The translations under genes and the position numbers were made by a program. A stretch of 64,000 nt of DNA from Sphingomonas cannabina. GTDB taxonomy: Bacteria > Pseudomonadota > Alphaproteobacteria > Sphingomonadales > Sphingomonadaceae. Location of the stretch: NCBI RefSeq assembly GCF_021391395.1, contig NZ_CP090059.1, positions 1,287,001-1,351,000 on the forward strand, given 5' to 3'. Below, piece after piece: positions 1 through 16,549 of the stretch. A model generated the notes under the pieces. That model ran no database searches. It worked only from the letters and a program-made list of their open reading frames with translations, and was not told where the DNA came from. The first letter of the stretch is position 1; each line of letters opens with the position of its first letter.

Positions 1-451
1 CGGTATGGACGACGATGCGGCCGCTGACGACGAAGATGAACTCCTCGCCGCTGTGGTGGACGAGGTCGCCGAACTCCTCGGCCGACTTGGCGCGCACGCG
101 GGTCAGCACCGGGATCATGCGCTTCCGGCGCAGCTCGGTGCAGAGATAGTAGTAATCGTAGTTGCGCGTGTTGACGCGCACCGCGCGATCGAGATCGCCG
201 ATGCTGCGGCGCGCGGTCACCGCCACCTCCGGCGTCGCCGCATTCTCGGCGAACAGCTCGGACATGCGGATGTTGAGCCGCTGGCTGAGCTGCAGCAGCT
301 TGTCGTAGGTGAGGGTGAGCCGGTCGTGCTCGACCTTGGACAGCGTCGACACCGGAATGCCGCTGCGCTCGCTCATTTCCTTGAGCGTCCAGTCGTTGCG
401 CGCACGCAGACCCTTGAGCAGCGTGCCGAGCGTAGGGTGCGCCTGCTTCAT
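1..451 (-). CDS. XRE-family regulator with C-terminal cupin domain (partial)
   Basis: DNA-binding regulator, probably sensing a small ligand through its cupin half and controlling the divergent D-amino-acid/peptide cluster. Reading leftwards from the ATG at 451, residues 1-65 form a Cro/C1-type helix-turn-helix (LKEMSERSGIPVSTLSKVE is the classic core), and from about residue 115 a cupin begins (VHHSGEEFIFVVSGRI). Only about 150 codons are inside the window; the C-terminal end is cut off. The ribosome site is weak. A conserved composite element at 483-523 lies 32-72 bases upstream of its start and is shared with a second promoter at 3650, so autoregulation plus control of both downstream units is a reasonable inference. 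The XRE-cupin family is certain; the regulon is inferred from position and the shared element. Confidence 0.88.
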   Translation of the reverse strand, partial: MKQAHPTLGTLLKGLRARNDWTLKEMSERSGIPVSTLSKVEHDRLTLTYDKLLQLSQRLNIRMSELFAENAATPEVAVTARRSIGDLDRAVRVNTRNYDYYYLCTELRRKRMIPVLTRVRAKSAEEFGDLVHHSGEEFIFVVSGRIVVHT

Positions 452-482
452 ATCGCCCGACCCCGCGCCTGTTCGCGACCGT

Positions 483-523
483 TTGACAATTTTCTAAATA
501 GGATCATGATGTCCCAATCAGGA
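483..523. promoter_or_regulatory. Conserved composite promoter/operator element, copy 1
   Basis: Intergenic AT-rich stretch between the divergent XRE regulator and the serine hydrolase gene. It reads TTGACA, then TTTTCT, TAGGAT, TCC and TCAG in fixed order, and matches the element at 3650-3688 almost block for block. TAGGAT and TCC are separated by 7 bases here and 6 in copy 2. An imperfect dyad GGA-N8-TCC is centred near 507. TTGACA starts 138 bases before the ATG at 621. No good -10 lies 17 bases after TTGACA, so part of the element may be operator rather than core promoter. Confidence 0.6.
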
Positions 524-620
524 CGAGAATGTTTCATGTCAGGCGCCAGACTAGTCGTTCCCGCCTGACGACGCAATCGACCGCAGGCCGCACGGCCAAA
601 GCGAAGGGGGTTCGCGATCC

Positions 621-2603
621 ATGTGGAAGCACGCGCTCAAACTCGGACTGGCGGGGCTGCTCGGCCTCGCTGCCGCCGTTCCCGCGTTCACGCAGCAGTC
701 GCCGTCATTGGTTCCGGAGCCTGCGCCCAAGGCGGCTGCAGCCCCGGCGTTGCCGCCGGCTCCCGCGGGGGCCGGGACGTTGACCAAGGCCGATGTCGAT
801 GCCTGGCTCGACGGCTACATGCCCTATGCGCTCGCCCGCGGTGACGTCGCCGGCGCGGTGGTCGTGGTGGTCAAGGACGGGCAGGTGCTCACCCAGCGCG
901 GCTTCGGCTATGCCGATGTCGCGGCGCGGAAGCCCGTCGATCCGGAGCGGACGCTGTTCCGGCCCGGCTCGACCTCGAAGCTGTTCACCTGGACCGCGGT
1001 GATGCAGCAGGTCGAGGCCGGCAAGCTCGACCTCGACGCCGACGTGAACCGCTATCTCGATTTCAGGATCCCGCCCTATCGCGGCAAGCCGCTGACGCTG
1101 CGCGAGATCATGACCCACACTTCGGGGTTCGAGGAGATCATCAAGGGGCTGCTCGCCTTCGACAAGCCGGTCAAGCCGCTGGGCGACGTGCTCAAGGAGC
1201 GTATACCGGAACGGATCTTCGCGCCCGGGTCGACGCCGGCCTATTCCAACTATGCCACCGCGCTGGCCGGCTATATCGTCGAGCGCGTCTCCGGGATGAA
1301 GTTCGACGATTATGTCGAGCGCAACATCTTCCAGCGGCTCGGCATGGCGCACACCAGCTTCCGCCAGCCGCTGCCGGCCAAGCTGAGGCCGCTGATGTCG
1401 CAGGGCTATGAGCTGGGCTCGGGCAAGGCGCAGCGCTACGAGCTGATCGGCCTCGCCCCCGCCGGCGCCGCCGCATCGAGCGGGGCGGACATGGCGAAGT
1501 TCATGATCGCGCACCTCAACGACGGCGGCCCGCTGCTGAAGCCCGAGACGGCGCGGCTGATGCACACAGCGCAGAACAAGAGCGTGCCGGGCAACAACCA
1601 GATGGCGCTCGGCTTCTACGAGCAGTGGATCGACGGCCACCGCGCGATCGGCCACGGCGGCGACACCGTCTATTTCCATACCGAACTGATGATCTTCCCG
1701 GCGGAGAAGGTCGGCGTGTTCATCTCGATGAACAGCGCGGGCAAGGACGGCGCCCCCAACGGGATTCGCGGCGCGCTGATGGACGAGTTCGTCGACCGGT
1801 ACCTCGCCTCCGGCCCTCGCAAGCCGCCGGTCGAACTGGCGACCGCCAAGGAACACGCCAGGATGCTGGCGGGCAACTGGACCGTCAGCCGGCGGATCGA
1901 ATCGAGCTTCGCCTCGATCGTCAGCCTGCTCGGCGAGATGAAGGTGGGCCTCGATGACGACGGGCGGCCGCTGATCGCCGGCGTTCCCGCGCTCGGCGGG
2001 GCGCCGCGCAAGTGGATCGAGGTCGCGCCCTTCATCTGGGAGGACGCCTATGGCCATGAGCGGCTCGCCGCCCAGGTCAAGGACGGCAAGGTGGTGCGCT
2101 GGACCTTCGCGATGGTCTCGCCGTTCATGGTGTGGGACCGCACGCCCTGGTACGCGAGCGGCAGCTGGCTGATCCCGGCGCTGATCTTTGCGCTGGCGGT
2201 GATCCTGGTGACCGCGGTCTCCTGGCCCGCCGGCTGGATCGCGCGGCGGCGCTATGGTGCGGCGCTGGCGCTGGAGGGTAACGCGCGCAAGGCCTATCGC
2301 CTCACGCGCGGCGTCTCGTGGCTGGTGCTGCTGGTGCTGGCCGGCTGGGCGGTCGTCATTTCGGGGATCGAGAATTTCGATACCCACGGCAAGACCGACT
2401 GGCTGATCCTGCTGCTCCAGGTCGTCGGCACGATCGGCTTCCTCGGCCTATTCGGCCTCGCCGCGTGGAACCTGTGGCTCGCCTTCCGGGGCAGGCGCGG
2501 ATGGTTCGCGACGCTGTGGGCGGTATTGCTGCTGCTCGGCGCCTTCTTCGTCCTGTGGACGGCGCTGGTGTTCAAGCTGATCAGCTTCGGCACAGCCTTC
2601 TGA
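621..2603 (+). CDS. Serine hydrolase (beta-lactamase/D-peptidase fold) with C-terminal membrane domain
   Basis: Exported penicillin-binding-protein-like hydrolase, plausibly acting on D-amino-acid peptides. A signal peptide occupies residues 1-25, followed by a Pro/Ala-rich linker to about 52. The catalytic triad of the class C/S12 fold is visible: SxxK at S117-K120 (STSK), YxN at 208-210 (YSN) and the HGG box at 345-347. After about residue 510 come four hydrophobic segments (roughly 515-540, 565-585, 600-622 and 632-655), so the enzyme is probably anchored in the inner membrane with its catalytic domain in the periplasm. It is first in a two-gene unit; the racemase gene follows after 3 bases. 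The substrate is not visible from sequence; D-aminopeptidase, esterase or carboxypeptidase are all possible. Confidence 0.85.
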   Translation: MWKHALKLGLAGLLGLAAAVPAFTQQSPSLVPEPAPKAAAAPALPPAPAGAGTLTKADVDAWLDGYMPYALARGDVAGAVVVVVKDGQVLTQRGFGYADVAARKPVDPERTLFRPGSTSKLFTWTAVMQQVEAGKLDLDADVNRYLDFRIPPYRGKPLTLREIMTHTSGFEEIIKGLLAFDKPVKPLGDVLKERIPERIFAPGSTPAYSNYATALAGYIVERVSGMKFDDYVERNIFQRLGMAHTSFRQPLPAKLRPLMSQGYELGSGKAQRYELIGLAPAGAAASSGADMAKFMIAHLNDGGPLLKPETARLMHTAQNKSVPGNNQMALGFYEQWIDGHRAIGHGGDTVYFHTELMIFPAEKVGVFISMNSAGKDGAPNGIRGALMDEFVDRYLASGPRKPPVELATAKEHARMLAGNWTVSRRIESSFASIVSLLGEMKVGLDDDGRPLIAGVPALGGAPRKWIEVAPFIWEDAYGHERLAAQVKDGKVVRWTFAMVSPFMVWDRTPWYASGSWLIPALIFALAVILVTAVSWPAGWIARRRYGAALALEGNARKAYRLTRGVSWLVLLVLAGWAVVISGIENFDTHGKTDWLILLLQVVGTIGFLGLFGLAAWNLWLAFRGRRGWFATLWAVLLLLGAFFVLWTALVFKLISFGTAF

Positions 2604-2606
2604 GCC

Positions 2607-3614
2607 ATGGCGCAGCGGCGCTCGGTCGACGTGCGGGTGGAGCGGTTCGCCTATGCCAAGCCGTTCCGCATCGCCGGCCATGTCTTCACCGAATCCTCGG
2701 TGGTGGTGGTCGAGGTCTCCGACGGCGTCCATGCCGGCCGCGGGGAGGGCGGGGGCGTCTTCTATCTGGGGGACGACGTCGCCGCGATGACCGCCACGAT
2801 CGAGAGCGTGCGTGAGCCGCTCACGCGGGGGATGACGCGGGAGGATCTGCAGGCCGCGCTGCCGCCGTGCGGGGGGCGCAATGCGATCGACTGCGCGCTG
2901 TGGGAGCTGGAGGCGAAGGCGAGCGGCACGCCGGTCTGGGCGCTGGCCGGACTGCCGGAGCCCGAACCGTTGCTCACCACCTTCACACTGGGCGCCGACG
3001 AGCCGGCGGTGATGGCCGAGGCGGCGGTGCGGGATTTCCCGGAGGCGCGCGCGCTCAAGCTCAAGCTGACCGGGGAGCTTGATCTCGATCTCGCCCGCGT
3101 GAGGGCAGTGCGCGCGGTGCGGCCGGAATGCTGGATCGGTGTCGACGCCAACCAGGGCTATGCGGTCGCCGACCTCGCGCGGCTGGTGGAGGGACTGGCC
3201 GATCTCGACGTCCGGCTGGTCGAGCAGCCGCTGGCGCGCGGGCGCGAGGCGGATCTCGACGGGTTCGACTCGCCCATTCCGATCGCGGCCGACGAGAGCG
3301 TGCTCGGCCTCGCCGACGTCGAGGCCATGGCCGGGCGGTTCGACACGATCAACATCAAGCTCGACAAGTGCGGCGGCCTGACCGAGGCGCTGGCGATGGC
3401 GCGGCGGGCGCAGGAACTCGGGCTCGGCGTGATGGTCGGCAACATGATGGGGACGAGCCTGGCGATGGCGCCGTCGTTCCTGGTTGGCCAGCTCTGCGAC
3501 GTGGTCGACCTCGACGGCCCGACCTTCCTTGCTCGCGATCGCGTGCCGGGGATCGCCTACCGCGCCGGCCATATCCATTGCGACGACAGCGTCTGGGGAC
3601 CGCTCGCCGCGTGA
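2607..3614 (+). CDS. dgcA: Enolase-superfamily racemase/epimerase, DgcA-like (N-acetyl-D-glutamate racemase or dipeptide epimerase)
   Basis: Member of the muconate-lactonizing/dipeptide-epimerase branch of the enolase superfamily, 335 residues (usual length about 320-350). Visible active-site set: the KxK base pair K151/K153, metal ligands D180 (GVDANQGY), E206 (EQPL) and D229 (ADES), and the second base in IKLDK at K251/K254. Members of this family were long annotated as L-Ala-D/L-Glu epimerases; DgcA enzymes instead racemize N-acetyl-D-glutamate to N-acetyl-L-glutamate, working with the DUF1611 acetyltransferase DgcN. A DUF1611 gene is three genes away at 5993, which favours the DgcA reading. 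TGA of the preceding gene and this ATG are separated by 3 bases with no obvious ribosome site, so translation is probably coupled. Epimerase of peptidoglycan dipeptides remains the alternative. Confidence 0.8.
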   Translation: MAQRRSVDVRVERFAYAKPFRIAGHVFTESSVVVVEVSDGVHAGRGEGGGVFYLGDDVAAMTATIESVREPLTRGMTREDLQAALPPCGGRNAIDCALWELEAKASGTPVWALAGLPEPEPLLTTFTLGADEPAVMAEAAVRDFPEARALKLKLTGELDLDLARVRAVRAVRPECWIGVDANQGYAVADLARLVEGLADLDVRLVEQPLARGREADLDGFDSPIPIAADESVLGLADVEAMAGRFDTINIKLDKCGGLTEALAMARRAQELGLGVMVGNMMGTSLAMAPSFLVGQLCDVVDLDGPTFLARDRVPGIAYRAGHIHCDDSVWGPLAA

Positions 3615-3649
3615 GCCGGATGCGGCGAGAAATAGATTTGCAATATAGG

Positions 3650-3688
3650 TTGACATTTTTCTGATTAGGATAAAACATCCTGATCAGA
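3650..3688. promoter_or_regulatory. Conserved composite promoter/operator element, copy 2
   Basis: Second copy of the element seen at 483: TTGACA, TTTTCT, TAGGAT, TCC and TCAG in the same order, with a perfect inverted repeat AGGAT-AAAAC-ATCCT at 3667-3681. TTGACA begins 139 bases before the ATG at 3789, against 138 bases for copy 1, which supports both shared regulation and the 3789 start. The short gap 3615-3788 otherwise contains no gene. Confidence 0.6.
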
Positions 3689-3788
3689 TAACACGATCAG
3701 GGAGGCGGCAATGGCGTCATTGCCCCGGTTCCCGCGTCGCCGGTCATTCGGCGGCGTGGCTGCGGTCGCCGATGTCAGGGGGAGGCGG

Positions 3789-5975
3789 ATGGTGAATCAG
3801 CATGTCGCAATTCGTGCGATGCTCGCGCTTTCGGCGGCGGTCGGCGCGCTTGCGCTGCCCGGCGTCGCGGCTGCGCAGGATGCGCAGGCCGACGCTACCG
3901 TCCGCGATCCCAACGACATCGTCGTCACCGCCCAGAAGCGCGACGAGCGGCTGCAGGACGTCCCGATCTCGATCAGCGTCGTCGGCGGCGAGCAGATGCA
4001 GCGCAGCGGCGGCTCGCAGCTGACCGATTATGCGGCCTATGTGCCGGGGCTGCAGGTCGACAACGCCGGTTCGCCCGGCCGCTCCACGCTGTCGCTGCGC
4101 GGCGTCGCGCCGATCGGGCCGAGCGCGACGGTCGGCATGTACCTCGACGACGCGCCGATCGGATCGAGCGGCATCTACAATCGCGCGCAGACCTTCTCGC
4201 TCGACCTGCTGCCCTACGACATCGAGCGGCTGGAGGTGCTGCGGGGGCCGCAGGGCACGCTCTATGGCGCCAGCTCGATCGGCGGCCTGCTCAAATATGT
4301 GACCGTTCAGCCCGACCTCCAGAACCTGTCGGTCCGCGCCAGCGGCGAGGCCTTCACCATCGCGCATGGCGAGGATCTCGGCTGGGCGGCGAGCGCGATG
4401 GTGAACGTGCCGATCATCGCGGACCAGCTGGCGATCAGCGGCAGCTACTCGCGGCGCGACACGCCGGGTTACGTCGACAACATCCAGACCGGCGAGAAGG
4501 ACGTGAACGACGCCGTCCAGCAGGGCGGCCGCGTGGCGCTGCTGTGGCGGCCCGATCCCGCGCTGACGATCAAGCTCAGCGGATTGTGGCAGTCGGTCGA
4601 TTCGGACAATTTCAGCATTCTCTACGAAGGCATGGGCAACCAGCCGCTGGCGCCCGGCGCGCGTTTCCTCAGCACCAATGCGCAGCTGCCCGAGCCCTTC
4701 ACCAGCGACTTCCAATTCTATTCGGGCACGGTCGGCTATGACTTCGGCTTCGCGGAGCTGAGCTCGACCACCTCGTACAGCGAGCTCAAGATCCTCGAGA
4801 CCAGCGACGCCTCTCGCGTCTACGGCGTGATCTGGGGCGGGCTGGCGATCTACCCGGCACGGCTGCACCAGAAGAAATGGACCGAGGAGGTGCGGCTCAC
4901 CTCGGCGTCGAGCGACAAGCTCGAATGGATGCTCGGCTTCTTCTACACCGACGAGGACAATACGCACGACCAGGTCGTCCGCGCGCTCGACGCTTCGGGC
5001 GAGGTGCTGCCGGCGTTTGATCCGTTCGCGATCGTCGCGCTGCCCAACACCTACAAGGAATATGCGGTCTTCGGGAACGCGACGTGGAAGATCAGCGAGA
5101 AGTTCCACATCAGCGGCGGGCTCCGGTGGGCGCGCAACGAGCAGACCTTCACCCAGGTGACGCAGATTCCGCTGCTCGGGCTGGATTCGGGCGGGTCGGG
5201 CACCTCGGAGGAGGAGATCGTCACCTACAGCGTCAGCCCGCAGTTCAACGTCAATCCCGACACGATGATCTACGCCCGCGTCGCCAGCGGCTATCGTCCG
5301 GGCGGGCCGAACATCGCGCTGCCGGGCTTTCCCTCCACCGTCGATTCCGAGAAGGTGACGAGCTACGAGGCGGGCATCAAGGCGCGTTTCCTCGATCGCG
5401 CCGTCGCCTTCGACGCCGCGGTGTTCCTGCTCGACTGGAACGACCTGCAGACCTCCGCCCCCTTCGCCGAGGGCATCAACGGCCTGGTCAACGCCGGCAC
5501 CGCGCGGAGCAAGGGCGTCGAGGCGTCGCTGCTGATCCAGCCGGTCGCCGGCCTCAGCGTGGGTGCGAACTTCGCCTACACCGACGCCAAGTGCACCGAG
5601 ACGACCAGCAACTGTACCGACGGCGACCAGCTGCCCAACGTGCCCAAGATCGCGGCGGCGATGACGGCGGACTATGGCTTCGCGCTCGGCGGCTCGGCGC
5701 GGGCGCGGATCGGCGGGGCTCTGCGTATCGTCGGCGACCGTATCTCCGCGGTCGAGAGCTCGCCGCTGGCGGTGCCGGTCGACGGCTATGCCACGCTCGA
5801 CCTCAATGCCGCGGTCACCTTCGACGGGAAGTGGACGCTGCGCGCCTATGCCCGCAACCTCACCGACGAGGAGGGGCGGATCACCAGCAACGTCGCGACC
5901 ACCAATCCCGGCTTCCTGTCGACCGTCCCGGTGCAGCCGCGCACGCTCGGCCTCGCGGTCGACCTGGCCTTTTGA
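3789..5975 (+). CDS. TonB-dependent outer-membrane receptor
   Basis: Outer-membrane active transporter, likely importing the substrate of this catabolic cluster (peptides or D-amino-acid compounds, inferred from neighbours). From ATG 3789 the protein is 728 residues: signal peptide ending near ALPGVAAAQ, TonB-box/plug start NDIVVTAQKRDERLQDVPIS, plug motif GPQGTLYGASSIGG, and a long barrel ending in an aromatic residue (LAVDLAF). An in-frame ATG at 3711 has a GGGAGG ribosome site, but would put 26 arginine-rich residues before the signal peptide. ATG 3789 also has a GGGGGAGG site 3-4 bases upstream and matches the spacing from the regulatory element to the other unit's start. The DUF1611 gene follows 17 bases after the stop. 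Confidence 0.93.
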   Translation: MVNQHVAIRAMLALSAAVGALALPGVAAAQDAQADATVRDPNDIVVTAQKRDERLQDVPISISVVGGEQMQRSGGSQLTDYAAYVPGLQVDNAGSPGRSTLSLRGVAPIGPSATVGMYLDDAPIGSSGIYNRAQTFSLDLLPYDIERLEVLRGPQGTLYGASSIGGLLKYVTVQPDLQNLSVRASGEAFTIAHGEDLGWAASAMVNVPIIADQLAISGSYSRRDTPGYVDNIQTGEKDVNDAVQQGGRVALLWRPDPALTIKLSGLWQSVDSDNFSILYEGMGNQPLAPGARFLSTNAQLPEPFTSDFQFYSGTVGYDFGFAELSSTTSYSELKILETSDASRVYGVIWGGLAIYPARLHQKKWTEEVRLTSASSDKLEWMLGFFYTDEDNTHDQVVRALDASGEVLPAFDPFAIVALPNTYKEYAVFGNATWKISEKFHISGGLRWARNEQTFTQVTQIPLLGLDSGGSGTSEEEIVTYSVSPQFNVNPDTMIYARVASGYRPGGPNIALPGFPSTVDSEKVTSYEAGIKARFLDRAVAFDAAVFLLDWNDLQTSAPFAEGINGLVNAGTARSKGVEASLLIQPVAGLSVGANFAYTDAKCTETTSNCTDGDQLPNVPKIAAAMTADYGFALGGSARARIGGALRIVGDRISAVESSPLAVPVDGYATLDLNAAVTFDGKWTLRAYARNLTDEEGRITSNVATTNPGFLSTVPVQPRTLGLAVDLAF

Positions 5976-5992
5976 GGGTGGACGCGCGCGAA

Positions 5993-7039
5993 ATGAACGC
6001 ACCTGTCGCCTTGCGTACCGGAGGCCTCGCGCTGCCGCAGCCCTATCTCCTGTTCCTCGGCGACGTCGAGCACGCGGGCTTCGCCAAGACGGCGTTCGGC
6101 CTCAGGGACTGGGCGCCGGAGAAGTGCGTGGGGGAGCTCCGGCTGCCCGGCGCCACCGTGACCACCGGCCTGGAGGCGTTGACGCCCGCCGAAGCCCGGG
6201 CGCGGGGCGCGCGGGCGTTGGTGATCGGCGTGGCCAATCCGGGTGGGATCATCCCGGCGAGCTGGCGCGCCTCGCTGGTCGAGGCGCTGGAGGCGGGGCT
6301 GGACCTGGTCGCGGGCATGCACGTACGCCTCGCCGAGATTCCCGAACTGGCCGAGACGGCCCATCTGCTCGGGCGCCGGCTGATCGACGTGCGGGTGCCG
6401 CCGCCTCAAATCCCGGTGGCGACCGGGCGGAAGCGGAGCGGCAAGCGGCTGCTCACCGTCGGCACCGACTGCGCGCTGGGCAAGAAATACACCGCGCTGG
6501 CGCTGTGGCGCGCCTTCTCCCGGCGCGGCGTGGAGACGGATTTCCGCGCGACCGGCCAGACCGGCATCATGATCGCGGGCGGCGGGATGCCGATGGACGC
6601 GGTCGTCTCCGACTTCGAGGCGGGCGCCGCGGAGCTGCTCTCACCCGACGCGCCGGCCGATCATTGGGACGTGATCGAGGGGCAGGGGGCGCTTACTCAT
6701 CCGGCCTATGCGGCCGTGTCGCTCGGCCTGCTCCACGGCAGCCAGCCCGACGTGTTCGTGGTCTGCCATGAGCCGGGCCGCACGGAGATGCTGGGCACGG
6801 CCGGCTACAAGCTCACCGGCATCGAGGAGATCGTCGAACTGACGACGTTGCTCGGCCGGCGGACCAACCCGGCGATCCGCTGCGCCGGCTTCTCGTTCAA
6901 CACGTCCACGCTGGGGGAGGGGGAGGCGGCCGAGCTGATGGCGCGCGAGGGCCGTCGGCTCGGCCTGCCCGTCGCCGATCCGATCCGCGGCGGACCCGCG
7001 TTCGAGGCGCTGGTCGACTCCTGCCTGGCGGCCGCATGA
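5993..7039 (+). CDS. dgcN: DUF1611 family protein, DgcN-like D-glutamate N-acetyltransferase
   Basis: 348-residue member of the DUF1611 family. The N-terminal half is a Rossmann-like domain; the C-terminal half starts with a P-loop-like motif GTDCALGKKYT at residues 157-167, followed by a conserved EGQGALTHPAY segment and a CHEPGRTEM stretch. Family members named DgcN acetylate D-glutamate with acetyl-CoA, giving N-acetyl-D-glutamate for the DgcA racemase; the DgcA-like gene lies at 2607 in the same cluster. GTG 5978 is an in-frame alternative start five codons earlier. The stop overlaps the next gene by ATGA. No N-acetyl-L-glutamate deacetylase is visible in the cluster, so that step would have to be encoded elsewhere or the product enter arginine synthesis. 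Confidence 0.8.
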   Translation: MNAPVALRTGGLALPQPYLLFLGDVEHAGFAKTAFGLRDWAPEKCVGELRLPGATVTTGLEALTPAEARARGARALVIGVANPGGIIPASWRASLVEALEAGLDLVAGMHVRLAEIPELAETAHLLGRRLIDVRVPPPQIPVATGRKRSGKRLLTVGTDCALGKKYTALALWRAFSRRGVETDFRATGQTGIMIAGGGMPMDAVVSDFEAGAAELLSPDAPADHWDVIEGQGALTHPAYAAVSLGLLHGSQPDVFVVCHEPGRTEMLGTAGYKLTGIEEIVELTTLLGRRTNPAIRCAGFSFNTSTLGEGEAAELMAREGRRLGLPVADPIRGGPAFEALVDSCLAAA

Positions 7040-8169
7040 CCGCGCCGGCGGCAGGATCGAGCTGGTTCCAGCGCTTCCTGCTGCCGGGCTTCGCGCTCAA
7101 GGCGGTGATCATCGGCGGCGGCTACGCGACCGGACGCGAGCTCGCCGAATATTTCCTGTCGAGCGGCCCATGGGGTGGGCTCGCCGGCATGATGCTGGCG
7201 ATGCTGCTGTGGAGCGCGATCGCCACCGTCACCTTCGCCTATGCGCGGATGGTAGGGGCGCTCGACTATCGCGCCTTCTTCCGCTCGCTGCTGGGGCCGG
7301 GATGGATCGCGTTCGAGGCGGCCTACATCGTGTTCGTGGTGCTGATCCTCGCCGTGTTCGGAGCGAGTGCGGGGGCGATCGGCACGGCGATGTTCGGCTG
7401 GCCGGGCTATGCGGGGGCGCTGCTGCTGGCCGCCGGGATCGTCGTCACGACGGCGCTCGGCAGCGGCTCGGTCGAGCGCGTGTTCAAATATGTCTCGATC
7501 CTGCTCTACGGTGTCTACGCGCTGTTCCTGCTGCTTGGCCTGTGGAGCTTCGGCGAGCGCATCCCGCAGGGGTTCGCCGCGCAGGGTTCGGCCGAGGGAT
7601 GGGCGCTCGGCGGCGTCACCTATGCGAGCTACAACATCGTCGGCGCGGTCGTGATCCTGCCGGTGCTGCGCCACCTGACCAGCCGGCGCGATGCAGTGGT
7701 GGCGGGCCTGCTGGCGGGACCCCTGACGATGCTGCCGGCGATCCTGTTCTTCGTCTGCATGGCCGCCTTCTATCCGGCGATCGCATCGCAGACGCTGCCG
7801 TCGGACTTCCTGCTGCGCCAGATGCATGTCCCGGCCTTCCACTGGCTGTTCCAGACGATGATCTTCCTCGCCCTGCTCGAGAGCGGGTCGGGCGCGGTGC
7901 ATGCGATCAACGAGCGGATCGCGGGCGTGATGCGGGTGCGGCACGGGCAGGAACTGGGCGTGCGCGCCCGCGCGCTGATCGGCGGCGTCCTGCTGCTGCT
8001 GTGCATCTTCGTTGCCGACCGGATCGGGCTCGTCGCGCTGATCGCCGGGGGATACCGGCTGCTCGCTTATCTGATCCTGGCCGTCTTCGTCCTGCCGCTG
8101 ATGACGATCGGGCTCGCGCGCCTCCTCGGCCGCGGGCCTGCACAACCCCGGGGAGAAGTCGCCGCATGA
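7036..8169 (+). CDS. YkvI-like APC-superfamily membrane permease
   Basis: 377-residue integral inner-membrane protein with about ten hydrophobic segments spread along its whole length. The first transmembrane segment carries a glycine-rich unwound motif (VIIGGGYATGREL), a hallmark of APC/LeuT-fold transporters, and the sequence resembles the YkvI family. It overlaps the upstream DUF1611 gene and the downstream hydrolase gene by ATGA at each end, so it is tightly embedded in the operon. By context it is the likely inner-membrane importer for D-glutamate, another amino acid or a small peptide. The substrate is inferred only; the transporter fold is moderately sure. Confidence 0.72.
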   Translation: MTAPAAGSSWFQRFLLPGFALKAVIIGGGYATGRELAEYFLSSGPWGGLAGMMLAMLLWSAIATVTFAYARMVGALDYRAFFRSLLGPGWIAFEAAYIVFVVLILAVFGASAGAIGTAMFGWPGYAGALLLAAGIVVTTALGSGSVERVFKYVSILLYGVYALFLLLGLWSFGERIPQGFAAQGSAEGWALGGVTYASYNIVGAVVILPVLRHLTSRRDAVVAGLLAGPLTMLPAILFFVCMAAFYPAIASQTLPSDFLLRQMHVPAFHWLFQTMIFLALLESGSGAVHAINERIAGVMRVRHGQELGVRARALIGGVLLLLCIFVADRIGLVALIAGGYRLLAYLILAVFVLPLMTIGLARLLGRGPAQPRGEVAA

Positions 8170-9725
8170 ATCGCTTTCTCCGTTCGCTGCCCGCGCTGCT
8201 GCTCGTGCTCGCCGCGCCCGCGCGCGCCGACGTACCCCCCGGCTTCGACGCATGGGTGGAGGCGCTCCGCCAGAAGACCGGCGCGCCGGGCATCGCCGTG
8301 GCGGTCGTCGAGAAGGGCAGGACCACGCTGGCGCGCGGCTGGGGCGTGCGCAGGCTCGGCGATCCGGCCAAGGTCGATGCCGACACGATCTTCCAGACCG
8401 GATCGACCGGCAAGGCCTTCACCGCGGCGGCGCTCGCGATCCTGGTCGACCGGGGCGCGATCAAATGGGACGACCGGGTGATCGACCACATGCCCTGGTT
8501 CCGCATGTACGATCCCTGGGTCACGCGCGAGATGACGATCCGCGACCTGCTCGTCCACCACAGCGGCCTCGGACTCGGCGCGGGCGACCTGCTGTTCGTG
8601 CCGCGCGGCAGCCTGTCGCGCAAGGAGACGGTGAGGCGGCTGGCCTTCATCAAGCCGGCGACCAGCTTCCGTTCCGGCTATGCCTATGACAATATCCTCT
8701 ACACCGTCGCCGGCCAGCTGATCGAGGAGGTCACCGGCAAGACCTGGGAAGAGTTCATGACCCAGGAGGTGCTGAAGCGCGGCGGCATGAACGCGGCGAC
8801 CGCCACCTACGAGGCGCGCTGGTCGACGCCCGACCGCGCCTTCCCGCATGCCCGGATCGGCGGCGCAGTGCGCGGCGACGGGCCCAATTCGGTGCTCGAC
8901 GAGCGCGAGGAGCTGGGCCGTGCCGGGATGCCTGCCGGCGGGCTGGCGCTCAGCGCCAACGATCTCGCGCAATGGCTCAGGATCCAGCTCGGCCATGGCG
9001 TCTTGCCCGGCGGCGGGCGGCTGTTCAGCGAGGCGCAGGCGGCCGAGATGTGGAAGGGCGTGACGATCCAGCCGATCGCGCCCTATCCCGGTGCGCTCGC
9101 GCCGCTCACGCCCAAGTTCAGCACCTATGCGCTGGGCTGGGAGGTCGAGGATTATCGCGGCGCGCGGATCATCTCGCACGGCGGCGGCGTGTTCGGGTCG
9201 ATCACGCACGTCATCCTGCTGCCCGACCAGGACGTGGGAATCGCGGTGGTGGTCAATTCCGAGGACATCGCCCTGCTGCGTGGCGTCGCGCACATGCTGG
9301 TCGACCATTATCTCGGCGTGTCCGACCAGGACTGGCCATCGCGTTTCGCGGCGTTCATGGAACAGCGCGTCGCCGGCGGGAAGGCCGCGCCGGCCAAGGT
9401 CGGCCCCTCGCTGCCGCTCGAGCGCTATGCGGGGACCTATCGCGATCCCTGGTACGGCGACGTGGCCGTCACCAGCGGTGCGGATGGCCTCCGCATCGAC
9501 TTCAGGACCACGCCACGCATGGCCGGCAGGCTGGTGCACTGGCAGTACGATACCTTCGTCACCCGGTTCGACGACAAGGCGATCGAGCCGGCCTATGTCA
9601 CCTTCGCGCTCGACGCGGAGGGCAAGGTCGCGCGGGTGTCGATGAAGGCGGAGAGCCCGATCGCCGACTTCAGCTACGACTATCAGGATCTCGACCTGCG
9701 TCCGGTGGCGGGGGCGGCCAAGTGA
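8166..9725 (+). CDS. Periplasmic serine hydrolase (beta-lactamase-related, DUF3471-type C-terminus)
   Basis: 519-residue exported hydrolase of the serine beta-lactamase/S12 fold. Signal peptide residues 1-21 (ends APARA), SxxK at S80-K83 (STGK), YxN at 174-176 (YDN) and the HGGG box in ISHGGGVFG. Residues after about 415 form a small lipocalin-like DUF3471-type domain (LERYAGTYRDPWYG). Unlike the first hydrolase of the cluster it has no membrane tail. Start overlaps the permease stop (ATGA), stop overlaps the dipeptidase start (GTGA). With the M19 dipeptidase it probably cleaves imported D-amino-acid peptides in the periplasm. Substrate not determined by sequence. Confidence 0.85.
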   Translation: MNRFLRSLPALLLVLAAPARADVPPGFDAWVEALRQKTGAPGIAVAVVEKGRTTLARGWGVRRLGDPAKVDADTIFQTGSTGKAFTAAALAILVDRGAIKWDDRVIDHMPWFRMYDPWVTREMTIRDLLVHHSGLGLGAGDLLFVPRGSLSRKETVRRLAFIKPATSFRSGYAYDNILYTVAGQLIEEVTGKTWEEFMTQEVLKRGGMNAATATYEARWSTPDRAFPHARIGGAVRGDGPNSVLDEREELGRAGMPAGGLALSANDLAQWLRIQLGHGVLPGGGRLFSEAQAAEMWKGVTIQPIAPYPGALAPLTPKFSTYALGWEVEDYRGARIISHGGGVFGSITHVILLPDQDVGIAVVVNSEDIALLRGVAHMLVDHYLGVSDQDWPSRFAAFMEQRVAGGKAAPAKVGPSLPLERYAGTYRDPWYGDVAVTSGADGLRIDFRTTPRMAGRLVHWQYDTFVTRFDDKAIEPAYVTFALDAEGKVARVSMKAESPIADFSYDYQDLDLRPVAGAAK

Positions 9726-10909
9726 GGCGCGCCACCCTCGCGGCGCTGCTGCTGCTCGGCGCCTGCGCCACCACCCCGCGGCCGGGCACGGACCCGCTGG
9801 CGCTCCACAAGAGCTTCCTCGTGCTCGACACGCATCTCGACACGCCGATGCATTTCGCGCGGCCGGGCTGGAGCTTCGGCGAGCGCCACGATCCCGCGAC
9901 CGATCTCGTGCAGGTCGATCTCAAGCGGATGGAGGACGGCGCGCTCGATGGCGGCTTCTTCGCCATCTATACCGACCAGGGGCCGCTCACCTCCGAAGGC
10001 TATGCCGCCGCGCTCGCCTTCGCGCGCGGACGGTCGGACCTGATCGACCGGACCATCGCCAGCTTCCCGGACCGCGTCGGCCCCGCGCTGACGGCCGCCG
10101 ACGCGAGGCGGCTGAATCGCGAAGGCCGCAAGATCGCCTTCAAGAGCATGGAGAACAGCTACCCGCTCGGCGAGGACCTCTCGCTGCTCGCCGAGTTCCG
10201 TCGCCGCGGCGTGCGGCTCGCCGGGCCGGTGCACGGCAAGAACAACCAGTTCGCCGATTCCGCCACCGACACCCCGCGATGGGGCGGCCTCAGCCCGCTC
10301 GGGCGGCGCTGGGTCGCGGAGATGAACCGGCTCGGCATGGTGATCGATGCGAGCCATGCCTCCGATGCCGCGTTCGACCAGATGCTCGAGCTGTCGAAGC
10401 GGCCGATCCTGCTGTCGCATTCCAGCGGCCGCTGGGCGTTCGACCATCCCCGCAATCTCGACGACGGCCGCATCCGCAAGCTGGCGGCCAAGGGCGGCGC
10501 GATCTGCGTCAGCACGATCTTCCTTTCCGACCTGAACCTCTCCGGCGAGCGTGGCGCGCTGTTCGCGCGCTACGAGCAGATCGCCACGCTCAGGCCGGAG
10601 GAGCAGGTCGCGCTCGCCCGCCGCTGGCGCGAGCTCGACCGGACGGCGCCGCTTTGGAACGCCGATTTCGAGCGCTACATGGCGATGGTGCTGCATGTCA
10701 TCGCGGTTGCCGGCGTCGACCATGTCTGCTTCGGCGCGGACTGGGACGGCGGCGGCGGCCTGCCGGGGATCGAGGACATCTCGGCCCTGCCGCGCGTCAC
10801 GGAGCGGTTGAAGCGCGCCGGCTATTCGGACGCAGATCTCGCGAAGATGTGGGGCGGGAACGTCCTGCGCATCCTCGAGCAACAGGGCGCCGACCTTAGC
10901 CGGCGGTGA
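9722..10909 (+). CDS. Membrane dipeptidase (M19, renal dipeptidase family), lipoprotein
   Basis: Zinc-dependent dipeptidase; family members hydrolyse L,D- and D,D-dipeptides. GTG start at 9722 gives a lipoprotein signal (lipobox LLGAC), so the enzyme is anchored on the periplasmic side. Metal and active-site residues of M19 are visible in order: HLD in DTHLDTPM, the bridging Glu in KSMENSYPLG, His in VIDASHAS, His in LLSHSSGR and the GADWDGGGG aspartate near the end. Length 395 residues is normal. GTGA overlap with the preceding gene shows it belongs to the operon and it is its last gene. Its activity fits breakdown of D-amino-acid dipeptides to feed the DgcN/DgcA branch. Confidence 0.9.
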   Translation: MRRATLAALLLLGACATTPRPGTDPLALHKSFLVLDTHLDTPMHFARPGWSFGERHDPATDLVQVDLKRMEDGALDGGFFAIYTDQGPLTSEGYAAALAFARGRSDLIDRTIASFPDRVGPALTAADARRLNREGRKIAFKSMENSYPLGEDLSLLAEFRRRGVRLAGPVHGKNNQFADSATDTPRWGGLSPLGRRWVAEMNRLGMVIDASHASDAAFDQMLELSKRPILLSHSSGRWAFDHPRNLDDGRIRKLAAKGGAICVSTIFLSDLNLSGERGALFARYEQIATLRPEEQVALARRWRELDRTAPLWNADFERYMAMVLHVIAVAGVDHVCFGADWDGGGGLPGIEDISALPRVTERLKRAGYSDADLAKMWGGNVLRILEQQGADLSRR

Positions 10910-10971
10910 CGCTCCGGATCGTCGCCTTGCCCTGAGCCAGATCGCGACACACCGCGGCCGTCCGCTCGTCG

Positions 10972-11355
10972 ATGGGGAAGCAGTATTCTGAGATTACATC
11001 GCTGAGAGCGATGCTAGAGCGTTCCGCGGGGCGTGCCCCGTTAGGGGCTCTCTCACTTCGCAAGCGCCCAACTCGCTTAGAGGCCGAGCTAGGCGAGATT
11101 GAAGAGCGCCCTCAGCACGTAGCTAACGTTGCTCTTGTGTTCGATGGGGAGCCGGTAAGAGGTTCCTTGGCGATCGAAGCAGATTTCGCCGGAAAGGCAT
11201 TGCAAGACTATAAAGAACTGATCGCCAAACATTTGGCCGCCGATAGCGGTCAAATGGCGGATCGTGGTCGGCTACCAGATCAAATTCACAAGCAAGCTCG
11301 CATGAATGTGACGGCGCTTGTGCACGGCTCTTTTGGTTCCGTTCTAGTGGTTTAG
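10972..11355 (+). CDS. Orphan hypothetical protein, low-GC
   Basis: 127-residue reading frame of unrecognised function. It opens with an amphipathic helix (SEITSLRAMLER) and a charged coiled-coil-like helix (RLEAELGEIEER), followed by a mixed alpha/beta stretch ending in ALVHGSFGSVLVV. Base composition is clearly lower in GC (about the mid-50s percent by eye) than both flanks, and codon choice differs (CTA, AGA, ATT, TTG are common). This suggests recent acquisition or a decaying remnant. The C-terminus stops abruptly after a beta strand, so truncation is possible. No mobile element is attached. There is no clear ribosome site before ATG 10972. Confidence 0.5.
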   Translation: MGKQYSEITSLRAMLERSAGRAPLGALSLRKRPTRLEAELGEIEERPQHVANVALVFDGEPVRGSLAIEADFAGKALQDYKELIAKHLAADSGQMADRGRLPDQIHKQARMNVTALVHGSFGSVLVV

Positions 11356-11488
11356 CCGCTCAGAGATCGGGGGCCAACCGCAACCCGATCAGCGCCACGA
11401 CCGGGAATGCATCCGGTTTACCCCCCAGCCCCTCGGAAGTCGTGCTCCGCGCTGTTGAGGCCACGCCGGGGGCATGGCCGATCCGGAA

Positions 11489-11513
11489 CTCTCTCCAATG
11501 CGAGAGGGGTTTT
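11489..11513 (+). terminator. Possible intrinsic terminator
   Basis: A 5-7 bp stem (CTCTC with GAGAG, flanked by wobble pairs) with a 6-base loop is followed by TTTT at 510-513. It would end transcription from the low-GC gene or the upstream operon, facing the convergent cupin gene. The stem is short and the U-tract is only four bases. The rest of 11356-11488 holds nothing recognisable. Confidence 0.35.
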
Positions 11514-11514
11514 C

Positions 11515-11931
11515 CTACTTCACCCGCTCGGCCAGCGGATAGCTGATGATCAGCACCAGCGGTTCGCTGCCCTGCTGGCGGATGCCCATCGTCTCGCCGG
11601 TGAAGAAATAGACCGCCTGCCCCGGCCCGACCTGTGCCTTGCGGTCGCCGGAGAAGGCTTCGCCGCGGCCGGAGACGACATAATAGACTTCGTCGTGGCT
11701 GAGCTTGTGCGCGCCGATCGCCGCGCCCGGATGCAGCGCGCGCTTGCGGAACTCCATGTTCCGGTCCGGCACCGCATCGCTGATCCGCCAGGCGGTGCTC
11801 ATGCCGATCTTCCCGTGCGGCGTCGGCTCGTCGCGCTTGACCGAGGTTTCGTCGACGACGGTCATCTGACCCTCCTGCGCGGCCGCCGTGGCGGGAAGGA
11901 GGCTCATCAGGAGAAGCAGGCTACCCCGCAT
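11515..11931 (-). CDS. Secreted small cupin-domain protein
   Basis: 138-residue protein with a signal peptide (residues 1-18, ends TAAAQ) and one cupin domain. The two cupin motifs are visible: HPGAAIGAHKLSHDEVYYVVSG and later GPGQAVYFFTGETMGI region. It overlaps the end of the pectate lyase gene by 11 bases and is the last gene of the minus-strand polysaccharide cluster. Small cupins near pectin genes can bind or isomerise uronate derivatives, but here the activity cannot be told from sequence. Periplasmic location is likely. Confidence 0.8.
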   Translation of the reverse strand: MRGSLLLLMSLLPATAAAQEGQMTVVDETSVKRDEPTPHGKIGMSTAWRISDAVPDRNMEFRKRALHPGAAIGAHKLSHDEVYYVVSGRGEAFSGDRKAQVGPGQAVYFFTGETMGIRQQGSEPLVLIISYPLAERVK

Positions 11932-13525
11932 GGCCGAGCTCCGCGATCAGCGTTTCCATGTTCTCGATATAAGCGCCCGTCGAGATGCCGATCGCCGGGT
12001 GCGGATCGATGTACGGCGAGGTGTCGGTGTCGTCGCCGACGCGGGTCGCGCCATAGTCGCCCGGCACCGGCGTCGGCGAGCCGTCACGGGTATAGCGATG
12101 GCTGGTGGTCTTGAGCTCGGTCGGCCACCAGCCCTCGGCATTGAGCGAGGCGACCAGCGCCTCCGCCGAGGGGCGCTTGCCGCCGAGGTTGCGATCCGAA
12201 TTCTTGCCGAGGTCGACGAGGAAATAGCGCGGCAGCGGCGCCCTGGTTCCGGCGCGGAGCGGTGAGTCCCTGGCGATCACGTCGCCGGGGATCGCTTTCA
12301 GCCGCTCATATTCGGCGCGCAGCTTCGGCACGTCGATGCTGCGGAAGGAGCTGTAGTGCTCGAGCGTGTGCTCGGGATTGCCGTCGACATAATATTCGCC
12401 GTTGACCACGTCGGAACCGCGGCGATGGACGAACAGCGGCTTGTTCGAGCCGATCTCGACGAAGGTCGGATAGGCCCTGCCGTTCTTGACGAGATTGTCG
12501 GGCAGCCGCACGGAATCGAGCCATGCCAGCGCCTCGGGCACACGTGCGAGGAATTTCGGATCGCCCGTCAGGCGATAGAATTCGAACAGCTGCTCGATAT
12601 TGGCCGCGGTGGTGTGGGTGACGAGCGCGGTCGGTTCGTAGGTGCGCGCGCCGGTCGGCTTCATGTCGAGCGTATACTGCAGCCCCCAGCCGGCCTGCGG
12701 CGCCGGCTGCTGCGCGGCGACGAACACGTCCATCGCGCGCCGGATCGCGTCTGGGATGCGCGGGTCGCCCAGCGTCTGCTGGTACATCAGCAGGAACTTG
12801 ATGTTCTCCGCCGCGACGTCGTCGTTGAAGGTGATGAAGCCGGTATAGTCGGGCTTGCCGTGATCGATGTACGGGCTCTTGGTCGCCGGATAGCGTTGCG
12901 GCCAACCGCCGTTCGGATACTGGCTCTCGAGGACGAAGCCCAGTGCCTTGTCGAGCGCCGGCTTGAGGTGCGGGTCGCGCTTCTCGAGGTAGAGCCTGAG
13001 CAGGAACTGCATCGACTCCGACGTTCCGGCGTCGTCGAAGGTGGCGTTGCCCCAGTCGTGCTGGAATTCCTCCAGCCGCCAGGCGTTCCTGCCGATCGTC
13101 GCGTACCAGCGCCTGGTCGAGTCCGGACCGCCATAGTCGATGAAATAATGCCAGCCGCCGCTCGGCAGCTGCCCTTCGATCAGCGCGTCCGCCGCCTTCA
13201 CCGCCGCCTGATAATAATAATCGTCGCCGGTCGCGTGATAAACGTCGAGGAACAAATGCCCCATCGTCGCGGTGCCGGGCGGCTGCACCCACACCATCGT
13301 CGGATAGGCCTCCATCTCCCCCCAGCGGCGCGAGAAGTCGGGCAGATAGGCCCAGACATAGCCGCCGTGGACCGATGCCTTGTCGACCATGAAGCGCGTC
13401 GCCCGCTTCATCGTGTCGAGCAGCTGCGCGCGGGGCGGAGCGGCGGAGCAGGCGACGGCGGGCACGGCTGCCATTATCGACCAGACGGTGCCGAGGCCGA
13501 GGATCAAAGCTGTGGCACGCCGCAT
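11921..13525 (-). CDS. Pectate lyase, PelA/Pel-15E (PL10) type
   Basis: 534-residue secreted polysaccharide lyase, expected to cleave polygalacturonate by beta-elimination. Signal peptide at residues 1-26. The (alpha/alpha)-barrel family signatures are visible as repeated glycine-tryptophan motifs, GQLPSGGWHYF, YPNGGWPQRYP and a TGFITFNDDV segment, as in family-10 pectate lyases. A long C-terminal extension after about residue 345 (YVDGNPEHTLEHYSS onward) ends at residue 534. It sits downstream of a TonB receptor gene with a hairpin between them, and overlaps the following cupin gene. It is the gene that most clearly points to pectin as the substrate of this cluster. Confidence 0.85.
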   Translation of the reverse strand: MRRATALILGLGTVWSIMAAVPAVACSAAPPRAQLLDTMKRATRFMVDKASVHGGYVWAYLPDFSRRWGEMEAYPTMVWVQPPGTATMGHLFLDVYHATGDDYYYQAAVKAADALIEGQLPSGGWHYFIDYGGPDSTRRWYATIGRNAWRLEEFQHDWGNATFDDAGTSESMQFLLRLYLEKRDPHLKPALDKALGFVLESQYPNGGWPQRYPATKSPYIDHGKPDYTGFITFNDDVAAENIKFLLMYQQTLGDPRIPDAIRRAMDVFVAAQQPAPQAGWGLQYTLDMKPTGARTYEPTALVTHTTAANIEQLFEFYRLTGDPKFLARVPEALAWLDSVRLPDNLVKNGRAYPTFVEIGSNKPLFVHRRGSDVVNGEYYVDGNPEHTLEHYSSFRSIDVPKLRAEYERLKAIPGDVIARDSPLRAGTRAPLPRYFLVDLGKNSDRNLGGKRPSAEALVASLNAEGWWPTELKTTSHRYTRDGSPTPVPGDYGATRVGDDTDTSPYIDPHPAIGISTGAYIENMETLIAELGHAG

Positions 13526-13548
13526 GCGATACTCCGAGACGGGAAAGG

Positions 13549-13578
13549 CCGGCGCAACCCTAGGGGATCGCGCCGGCA
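13549..13578 (-). other. Intercistronic hairpin between TonB receptor and pectate lyase genes
   Basis: Perfect 8-bp arms GCCGGCGC and GCGCCGGC enclose a loop that itself contains CCCTAGGG. No U-tract follows on the minus strand, so it looks more like an mRNA-stabilising or attenuating structure between two cistrons than a strong terminator. It would allow the receptor and lyase to be made at different levels. Confidence 0.4.
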
Positions 13579-13590
13579 GGTGAGGAGACG

Positions 13591-16497: not shown

Positions 16498-16549
16498 ATC
16501 TCTCTCCCAGAATTTTCGTTTGTTTTGTGTTATTTGGTTATTGCGTGTC

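Follow-up and report, generated by a model that had tools for sequence, protein, structure and literature searches.

The eight-gene block and its products

The window analysed here is a stretch of 64,000 nucleotides from Sphingomonas cannabina, of the family Sphingomonadaceae (contig NZ_CP090059.1, positions 1,287,001 to 1,351,000). At its start, positions 1..10909, lies a block of eight genes that combines an XRE-cupin regulator, a TonB-dependent receptor, secreted peptidases and a transporter with homologs of the D-glutamate pathway enzymes DgcN and DgcA, and that carries a promoter element at two places. An earlier reading of the same sequence, here called the original prediction, had proposed a regulon for the uptake and catabolism of D-glutamate or D-amino-acid peptides. 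Open reading frames and profile scans with Pfam and NCBIfam confirm the block, its permease by fold only. Every gene of the predicted inventory is present, with the boundary of the regulator gene and the starts of two other genes amended as described below.

The regulator gene R lies on the minus strand (1..451) and encodes a 215-residue protein with the helix-turn-helix (HTH) and cupin domains of the XRE-cupin class (HTH_3, 35.4 bits; Cupin_2, 38.3 bits) and a conserved element in the adjoining promoter. The window edge severs the gene and leaves its 3' end outside; the full span is 9804-10451, minus strand, of the extended locus L003, which equals window 451 to 1 plus 197 bp upstream, stop codon included. 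R is present as a single copy in this genome. The other genes read on the plus strand. H1 (621..2603) encodes a secreted S12 (penicillin-binding-protein (PBP)/beta-lactamase-like) peptidase with a membrane tail (PF00144, 213.5 bits; STSK, YSN and HGG motifs), and 3 bp separate it from A (2607..3614), which encodes a cytoplasmic, DgcA-like MR_MLE racemase of the enolase superfamily (NF042940, 369.4 bits against a cut-off of 400; diagnostic columns below). The TonB-dependent outer-membrane receptor T follows (3711..5975; PF00593, 144 bits; PF07715, 81.8 bits), its start being either 3711 or 3789, each preceded by a purine-rich stretch. N (5993..7039) encodes a DUF1611, DgcN-like N-acyltransferase (PF07755, 232.3 bits; NF041892, 436.4 bits against a cut-off of 480). 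The N-P, P-H2 and H2-M junctions overlap by 4 bp each. H2 (8166..9725) encodes a second secreted S12 peptidase with a DUF3471 domain (PF00144, 206.2 bits; PF11954, 96.5 bits; STGK, YDN and HGG motifs); for both H1 and H2 the PF00144 score exceeds the cut-off of 27 and the SxxK, YxN and HxG motifs can be read in the sequences. M (9722..10909) encodes an M19 (renal-dipeptidase-type) lipoprotein (PF01244, 295 bits against a cut-off of 26) whose nearest solved relative is 2rag (E 5.1e-124). Its GTG start at 9722 overlaps the H2 stop, and its N-terminus reads MRRATLAALLLLGAC, a lipobox (LLLLGAC).

The remaining product, P (7036..8169), drew no match in Pfam, NCBIfam or PDB sequence searches. An AlphaFold2 (AF2) model built from a 45-row alignment reached a mean predicted local distance difference test (pLDDT) score of 89.2, and the best Foldseek matches included the transporters BasC, AdiC, LAT, MhsT and Nramp (TMq 0.50-0.66, E about 1e-5 to 1e-4). 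By this predicted fold P is an inner-membrane transporter of LeuT type that belongs to no named sequence family, and it is in this form that the earlier label of APC-type permease holds. The model of H1 (mean pLDDT 88) shows a signal helix, the S12 domain, a beta domain and four C-terminal helices, and its structural neighbours near the top include the Pyrococcus PBP homologue 2qmi, the esterase IS11 and, at rank 5, the Lip3 DL-peptidase 9sn1. Relatives of H1 and H2 by sequence or structure include ClbP, which we assume also has a membrane tail, and a DL-peptidase. A secreted, membrane-tailed S12 enzyme with such relatives would suit a block that mainly disarms D-residue peptide antibiotics, nutrition being secondary. 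We regard a resistance role of this kind as highly improbable, given that the block also places a TonB receptor, a permease and two cytoplasmic enzymes from catabolic families under this one element, and that none of the eight genes encodes an export pump.

Conservation of the block

DgcN homologs were divided by their score against the window's N into block-type (at least 380 bits) and canonical (200-340 bits), with those at 340-380 and below 200 bits in neither group. Among 249 genomes of the family, 66 match N at E <= 1e-20 and 39 have a block-type copy, 12 of the latter with two or more. The largest numbers in one family genome are seven DgcN matches of all types and five of block type (G215). 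A sample of the phylum gave matches at E <= 1e-60 in 68 of 398 genomes, where the only block-type sequence outside the family (409.5 bits) is that of G391. The best 80 of 553 relatives of N come mostly from Sphingopyxis, Sphingomonas and allies, Sphingosinicella microcystinivorans and Sphingopyxis microcysteis among them, and include the gammaproteobacterial genera Rudaea, Steroidobacter and Peristeroidobacter. Of six other members of the genus that were seen, three have only a canonical-score DgcN and three no match.

Gene neighbourhoods, none much longer than 20 kb, were annotated using the proteins of the window and one LysR protein, to which ten accessory proteins were later added. The gene order R< H1> A> T> N> P> H2> M> was found again in many genomes and across genera; the block is therefore not a chance neighbourhood. 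The survey of sphingomonad neighbourhoods that the original prediction had proposed thus finds the block conserved as a unit. Two alternative layouts were seen, one reading R> H1> N> P> AH3> A> XPD> H1>, the other, T2< (CocE>) M19b> N> H1> H2>, having no racemase. For linkage, distinct DgcN sequences were counted (134 block-type, 30 canonical) with a neighbour defined as lying within 9.5 kb. H1 is near 125 of the block-type sequences, R near 104, A near 98, P near 96 and H2 near 82. Canonical loci consist of dgcN-dgcA, in most cases with a LysR gene alongside: of the 30, 27 have A nearby, 23 have LysR, and P and H2 are near one each, whereas LysR is near none of the 134. In a DgcN tree made by a quick method from 108 of 186 rows, after removal of near-copies, the LysR-type rows lie behind a fully supported fork that holds no block-type rows; the root is a single very distant row (branch 4.5), which makes the rooting unsafe. 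At locus L071 a close permease (527 bits) adjoins a DgcN of canonical score (309 bits), and the XRE-cupin regulator has a weak match (78 bits); the locus is a possible hybrid.

A promoter element shared by two sites

A position weight matrix (PWM) was built from 75 divergent R-H1 gaps (R above 250 bits, H1 above 400), reduced to 52 non-redundant ones. The 46-bp element that it describes, a TTGACA box with CAATCAGGA-type repeats, occurs in 52 of the 52 gaps at 24-74 bits, against at most -10.9 bits in shuffled gaps. The matrix was trained on the very gaps scored here; the independent tests are the canonical loci and the genome and family scans. Matches above 15 bits number zero in 31 canonical loci. 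The window holds the element on the plus strand at 481..526, in the divergent R-H1 gap (putative operator 1; TTGACA box followed by the CAATCAGGA-type repeats; 67.3 bits), and again at 3648..3693, upstream of the TonB receptor (putative operator 2; TTGACA followed by a TCTGATTAGGAT-N5-ATCCTGATCAGA inverted repeat; 19.6 bits).

A 22-base core of the element, allowing three mismatches, has exactly two sites in the 4.39-Mb genome, 483-504 and 3650-3671, both within the block, the one at operator 2 being a zero-mismatch match. The reversed pattern is absent from the same genome, and 100 shuffles of the window gave no match. A regulon extending over this genome was rejected because these two are the only core sites at up to three mismatches.

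With up to two mismatches, 33 of the 249 family genomes have a core site: 28 of the 39 with a block-type DgcN and 5 of the 210 without. The reversed core gave one match in the same set. At zero or one mismatch, sites remain in 28 genomes, of which G210 alone has no block-type DgcN; there they fall on a short contig that still carries R, H1 and A, the receptor being lost at the contig end. The other four exceptions have two-mismatch sites only, and around the site in G129 (L228) none of the families is seen. Loci L226, L227, L229 and L230 have two-mismatch sites beside H1-type hydrolases and no DgcN on the spot (it is elsewhere in the genome); they also hold TonB receptor, M19 or beta-lactamase-like genes and are possible satellite members of the regulon. 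Because the element is shared by two places and the regulator is single-copy, the block looks like one regulon. We infer that R binds the element and represses the neighbouring genes. The claim of a regulon made in the original prediction is supported by the shared element, the single-copy R and the conservation of the unit.

Residues that bear on the substrate

The same genome contains a second dgcN-dgcA pair, with a LysR gene, at 9334-12291 of locus L004 (G000:C1:2164333-2167290). Both its members score above the NCBIfam equivalog cut-offs, DgcN with 520.7 bits and DgcA with 423.3. A D-aminoacylase-type gene lies about 8 kb from the pair, at G000:C1:2173311-2174849. The profile comparison that the original prediction had proposed leaves N and A of the block below those same cut-offs, at the scores given above. 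A belongs to the MLE/dipeptide-epimerase-like part of the enolase superfamily (PF13378, 102.3 bits; PF02746, 38.9 bits; both above their cut-offs) and scores 232.7 bits against a cut-off of 343 on PRK15129, the model for YcjG, an L-Ala-D/L-Glu epimerase.

Racemase columns were compared between 41 block-type and 28 canonical sequences of the family set, then again for a larger set of 105 block-type rows (with any sequences shared by the two collections left in), 28 canonical and 4 intermediate. The acids D180, D229, D301 and D303 of A are invariant in 105 of 105 block-type rows; the catalytic lysines and the third metal acid were recognised by visual inspection of the sequences. The lid loop of A reads FRIAGHVF where canonical racemases have FRISRGxK. 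At position 24, 102 of 105 block-type rows have G and 27 of 28 canonical ones R; at position 27, 102 of 105 have F, where 25 of the 28 canonical rows have K or R. R stands at both places in E. coli YcjG and 4gfi, the Thermotoga epimerase has G and S, and the four intermediates are mixed. Position 27 corresponds to R24 of YcjG, which we take to bind the glutamate carboxylate; a lid-loop cation here, our own choice of marker for DgcA, is replaced in A by F27. In DgcN, R41, kept in 26 of 28 canonical rows, is A in 51 of 54 block-type rows, and R267, likewise kept in 26 of 28, is L, M, I or V in all 54. The solved relative 7xrj, presumably the characterised DgcN, retains both arginines. By profile score and clade-diagnostic residues, rather than by a racemase tree, A thus falls outside the DgcA branch, a placement that the original prediction had named as telling against itself.

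These results bear on the substrate that was first proposed, a second D-glutamate (or D-Glu/D-Gln/D-Asn) pathway fed by stem peptides, in which DgcN acetylates D-glutamate and DgcA racemises N-acetyl-D-glutamate. The best NCBIfam models for N and A are indeed those for DgcN and DgcA, and M19 and S12 enzymes can attack bonds like those of stem peptides. We nevertheless consider this quite unlikely: with scores below both cut-offs, an above-cut-off pair elsewhere in the genome, and hardly any block-type row retaining the lid-loop cation or the DgcN arginines, the assignment to D-glutamate is probably wrong. Peptidoglycan stem peptides are still a possible source of the peptides. The DxD, P-loop, S12 and M19 catalytic motifs appear intact on reading, and the enzymes of the block therefore look functional, with altered specificity.

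A different view is that A is a dipeptide epimerase acting on imported L-Xaa-D-Yaa while N modifies another D-residue or the dipeptide itself, giving parallel acyl and dipeptide routes. The DxD motif (D301, D303), which we take to bind the ammonium group of a dipeptide, is invariant in 105 of 105 block-type rows, the two lid-loop positions shift from DgcA toward the Thermotoga dipeptide epimerase 2zad, POT di/tripeptide permease genes occur near 22 of the 134 block-type DgcN, and some loci have N without A. Yet the motif is equally invariant in 28 of 28 canonical DgcA-type rows, which are named for an N-acetyl substrate, and A lies near N in 98 of 134 cases; we judge this view unlikely. A Thermotoga epimerase of this type is reported to accept dipeptides with hydrophobic C-terminal residues (PMC13338154).

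Accessory genes near block-type loci

Eight of 15 recurrent neighbour clusters were classified. Recurrent neighbours besides the POT permease are a D-aminoacylase-type amidohydrolase (best solved relatives the N-acyl-D-glutamate deacylase 3gip and the D-aminoacylase 1rjp), a second M19 enzyme, a hydrolase of S15/CocE type, a protein resembling the Xaa-Pro dipeptidase of Caulobacter (375.4 bits against a cut-off of 500), and an Lrp-type regulator paired with an amino-acid dehydrogenase. The recurrence of D-aminoacylase-type, second M19, Xaa-Pro-dipeptidase-like and POT permease genes points to D-peptides as a theme. No muropeptide-specific family is among the eight of 15 clusters classified, with no search by name made, which also tells against the D-glutamate pathway.

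The dehydrogenase is nearest to leucine dehydrogenases (6acf), then to tryptophan and phenylalanine dehydrogenases, and remote from glutamate dehydrogenases. Among distinct DgcN sequences, 14 of the 134 block-type and 0 of the 30 canonical ones have it nearby; counted by loci, duplicates included, it occurs with Lrp in 18 of 142 block-type and 0 of 31 canonical loci, in differing orientations, and an Lrp gene is present in 18 of 18 dehydrogenase-bearing loci. This linkage, with Lrp, is the basis for suggesting a hydrophobic substrate.

The D-aminoacylase-type proteins near block-type DgcN (33, taken only if above 600 bits to a block-type query; example L102 10577-12226) were compared with 28 near lower-scoring DgcN. 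The HxH pair is kept in 26 of the 28; among the 33, the first H is kept in none and the second in one. The comparison thus found differences in putative metal ligands, which suggests changed metal use, and no clear signal of specificity.

Base composition and flanking genes

The G+C content of the block is 68.9%, that of the remainder of the window 68.6% and that of 9.8 kb upstream 65.7%, figures that give no clear sign of foreign origin; yet the six other members of the genus seen have a canonical-score DgcN alone or no match. A pectin-type set (cupin protein, pectic acid lyase, TonB receptor) adjoins the block at 11515-16641 of the window, and a GH127 gene and an aspartyl-protease-like gene lie upstream of the window, at L003 5248-8312.

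Discussion

We read the block as a locus for the utilisation of D-residue peptides, controlled by an XRE-cupin regulator, in which a probably neutral or hydrophobic D-amino acid is N-acylated and racemised, and we put the probability of this reading at a little under 0.6. In the proposed pathway, T would import oligopeptides bearing D-residues, and H1, anchored in the inner membrane, would trim them in the periplasm together with H2 and M to dipeptides or the free D-amino acid. P would carry the product into the cytoplasm, N would N-acylate the D-amino acid and A would racemise the N-acyl amino acid, after which a deacylase from outside the block would release the L-amino acid for catabolism. 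R would repress both promoters until a metabolite of the pathway binds its cupin domain. The amino acid is probably neutral or hydrophobic, leucine-, valine- or phenylalanine-like, for example, rather than glutamate. The scavenging set from outer membrane to cytoplasm that was first proposed survives as a conserved unit whose layout suits D-residue peptides, without D-glutamate as its substrate. The observation is stronger than first claimed: the unit is conserved, and a promoter element found at two places defines it.

Several observations weigh against this utilisation pathway. Eleven of the 39 genomes with a block-type DgcN have no core site at up to two mismatches, and the conserved element is in part nothing more than promoter. 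The change from R to Y at racemase position 53 was rejected as a glutamate marker because the Thermotoga epimerase keeps the R. Both racemase clades retain DxD, so that A may use dipeptides as direct substrates. Block-type DgcN loci with no racemase nearby occur (L135-L140), and among the matches listed it is in these that the DgcN genes nearest to the window's N (about 83-85% identity) are found; because the locus type differs, DgcN genes may have been exchanged between locus types. The dehydrogenase is linked in only about one tenth of loci, and in this genome its single match is about 1.8 Mb away. Genes of the D-aminoacylase type, near 22 of 30 canonical and 65 of 134 block-type DgcN, do not separate the two and were rejected as a discriminator.

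The enzyme families and the scheme of acylation and racemisation are known from the DgcN-DgcA pathway of D-glutamate (Yu et al. 2023, ISME J, as cited in PMC12363236 and PMC10845958), which shares with the block a DUF1611 acyltransferase, a racemase of the enolase superfamily and, we infer, their logic. Where canonical loci have dgcN-dgcA, mostly with LysR, the block has an XRE-cupin regulator, a TonB receptor, two S12 enzymes, an M19 enzyme and a permease, and its enzyme pair differs in the lid loop, in other conserved residues and in falling below both equivalog cut-offs. Among dipeptide epimerases (E. coli YcjG, 1jpd; Thermotoga, 2zad and 3deq), A shares the superfamily and the DxD motif. 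Like the Thermotoga enzyme it lacks the arginines of YcjG at two lid-loop positions, and from YcjG it differs also in its PRK15129 score.

In Pseudomonas, according to the published model (PMC7901475), XRE-cupin proteins repress locally and are released by a pathway metabolite, and they include a dipeptide regulator with two sites. PsdR and DbuR resemble R in joining HTH and cupin domains, adjoining their targets and having a site over the core promoter, with two sites for PsdR. The likeness is one of description, and R would differ in taking as its target, by binding and repression, a whole pathway from surface to cytoplasm. The mlr microcystin genes of sphingomonads offer an analogy in a periplasmic serine hydrolase (MlrB) and a di/tripeptide permease (MlrD) acting on a D-residue peptide, and MlrB-like and MlrD-like back-up proteins have been inferred (PMC12474180). 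Sphingosinicella microcystinivorans (G242, L101/L170) has four block-type sequences among seven DgcN matches, and Sphingopyxis microcysteis (G042, L173) has one; by the same analogy, these loci could hold such back-ups. In layout the block also recalls the polysaccharide utilisation loci, which are modular, often multi-copy, and combine a TonB receptor with secreted hydrolases and a local regulator. Those act on glycans where the block would act on peptides, with other regulators and enzymes, so that the layout is what is shared.

More tentatively, and at somewhat less than even odds, we suggest that sphingomonads and some gammaproteobacteria possess a whole class of modular, often multi-copy D-peptide utilisation loci, comparable to those for polysaccharides, in which swappable secreted S12, M19, S15 and amidohydrolase enzymes and TonB receptors would stand under one shared XRE-cupin operator, and neofunctionalised DgcN and DgcA would racemise, by way of an N-acyl intermediate, D-amino acids of neutral or hydrophobic kind. 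A search of the openly licensed PMC literature, partial in coverage, found no description of a TonB-receptor-linked, XRE-cupin-controlled DgcN/DgcA block, in agreement with the original prediction, nor of an N-acyl racemisation route for neutral or hydrophobic D-amino acids.

One consequence is that surveys which count D-glutamate catabolism by homology to DgcN and DgcA alone may arrive at too high a figure. Should the missing lid-loop cation have the meaning that it seems to have, the clade offers a test case for a change of amino-acid specificity in an acylate-then-racemise pathway. The 22-base element serves as a finder for more such loci, four without DgcN having already been found with it. 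Peptides with D-residues, such as peptidoglycan fragments, lipopeptides and the cyclic peptides of cyanobacteria, degrade poorly, and a regulon joining their capture at the surface to racemisation would explain how sphingomonads use them.

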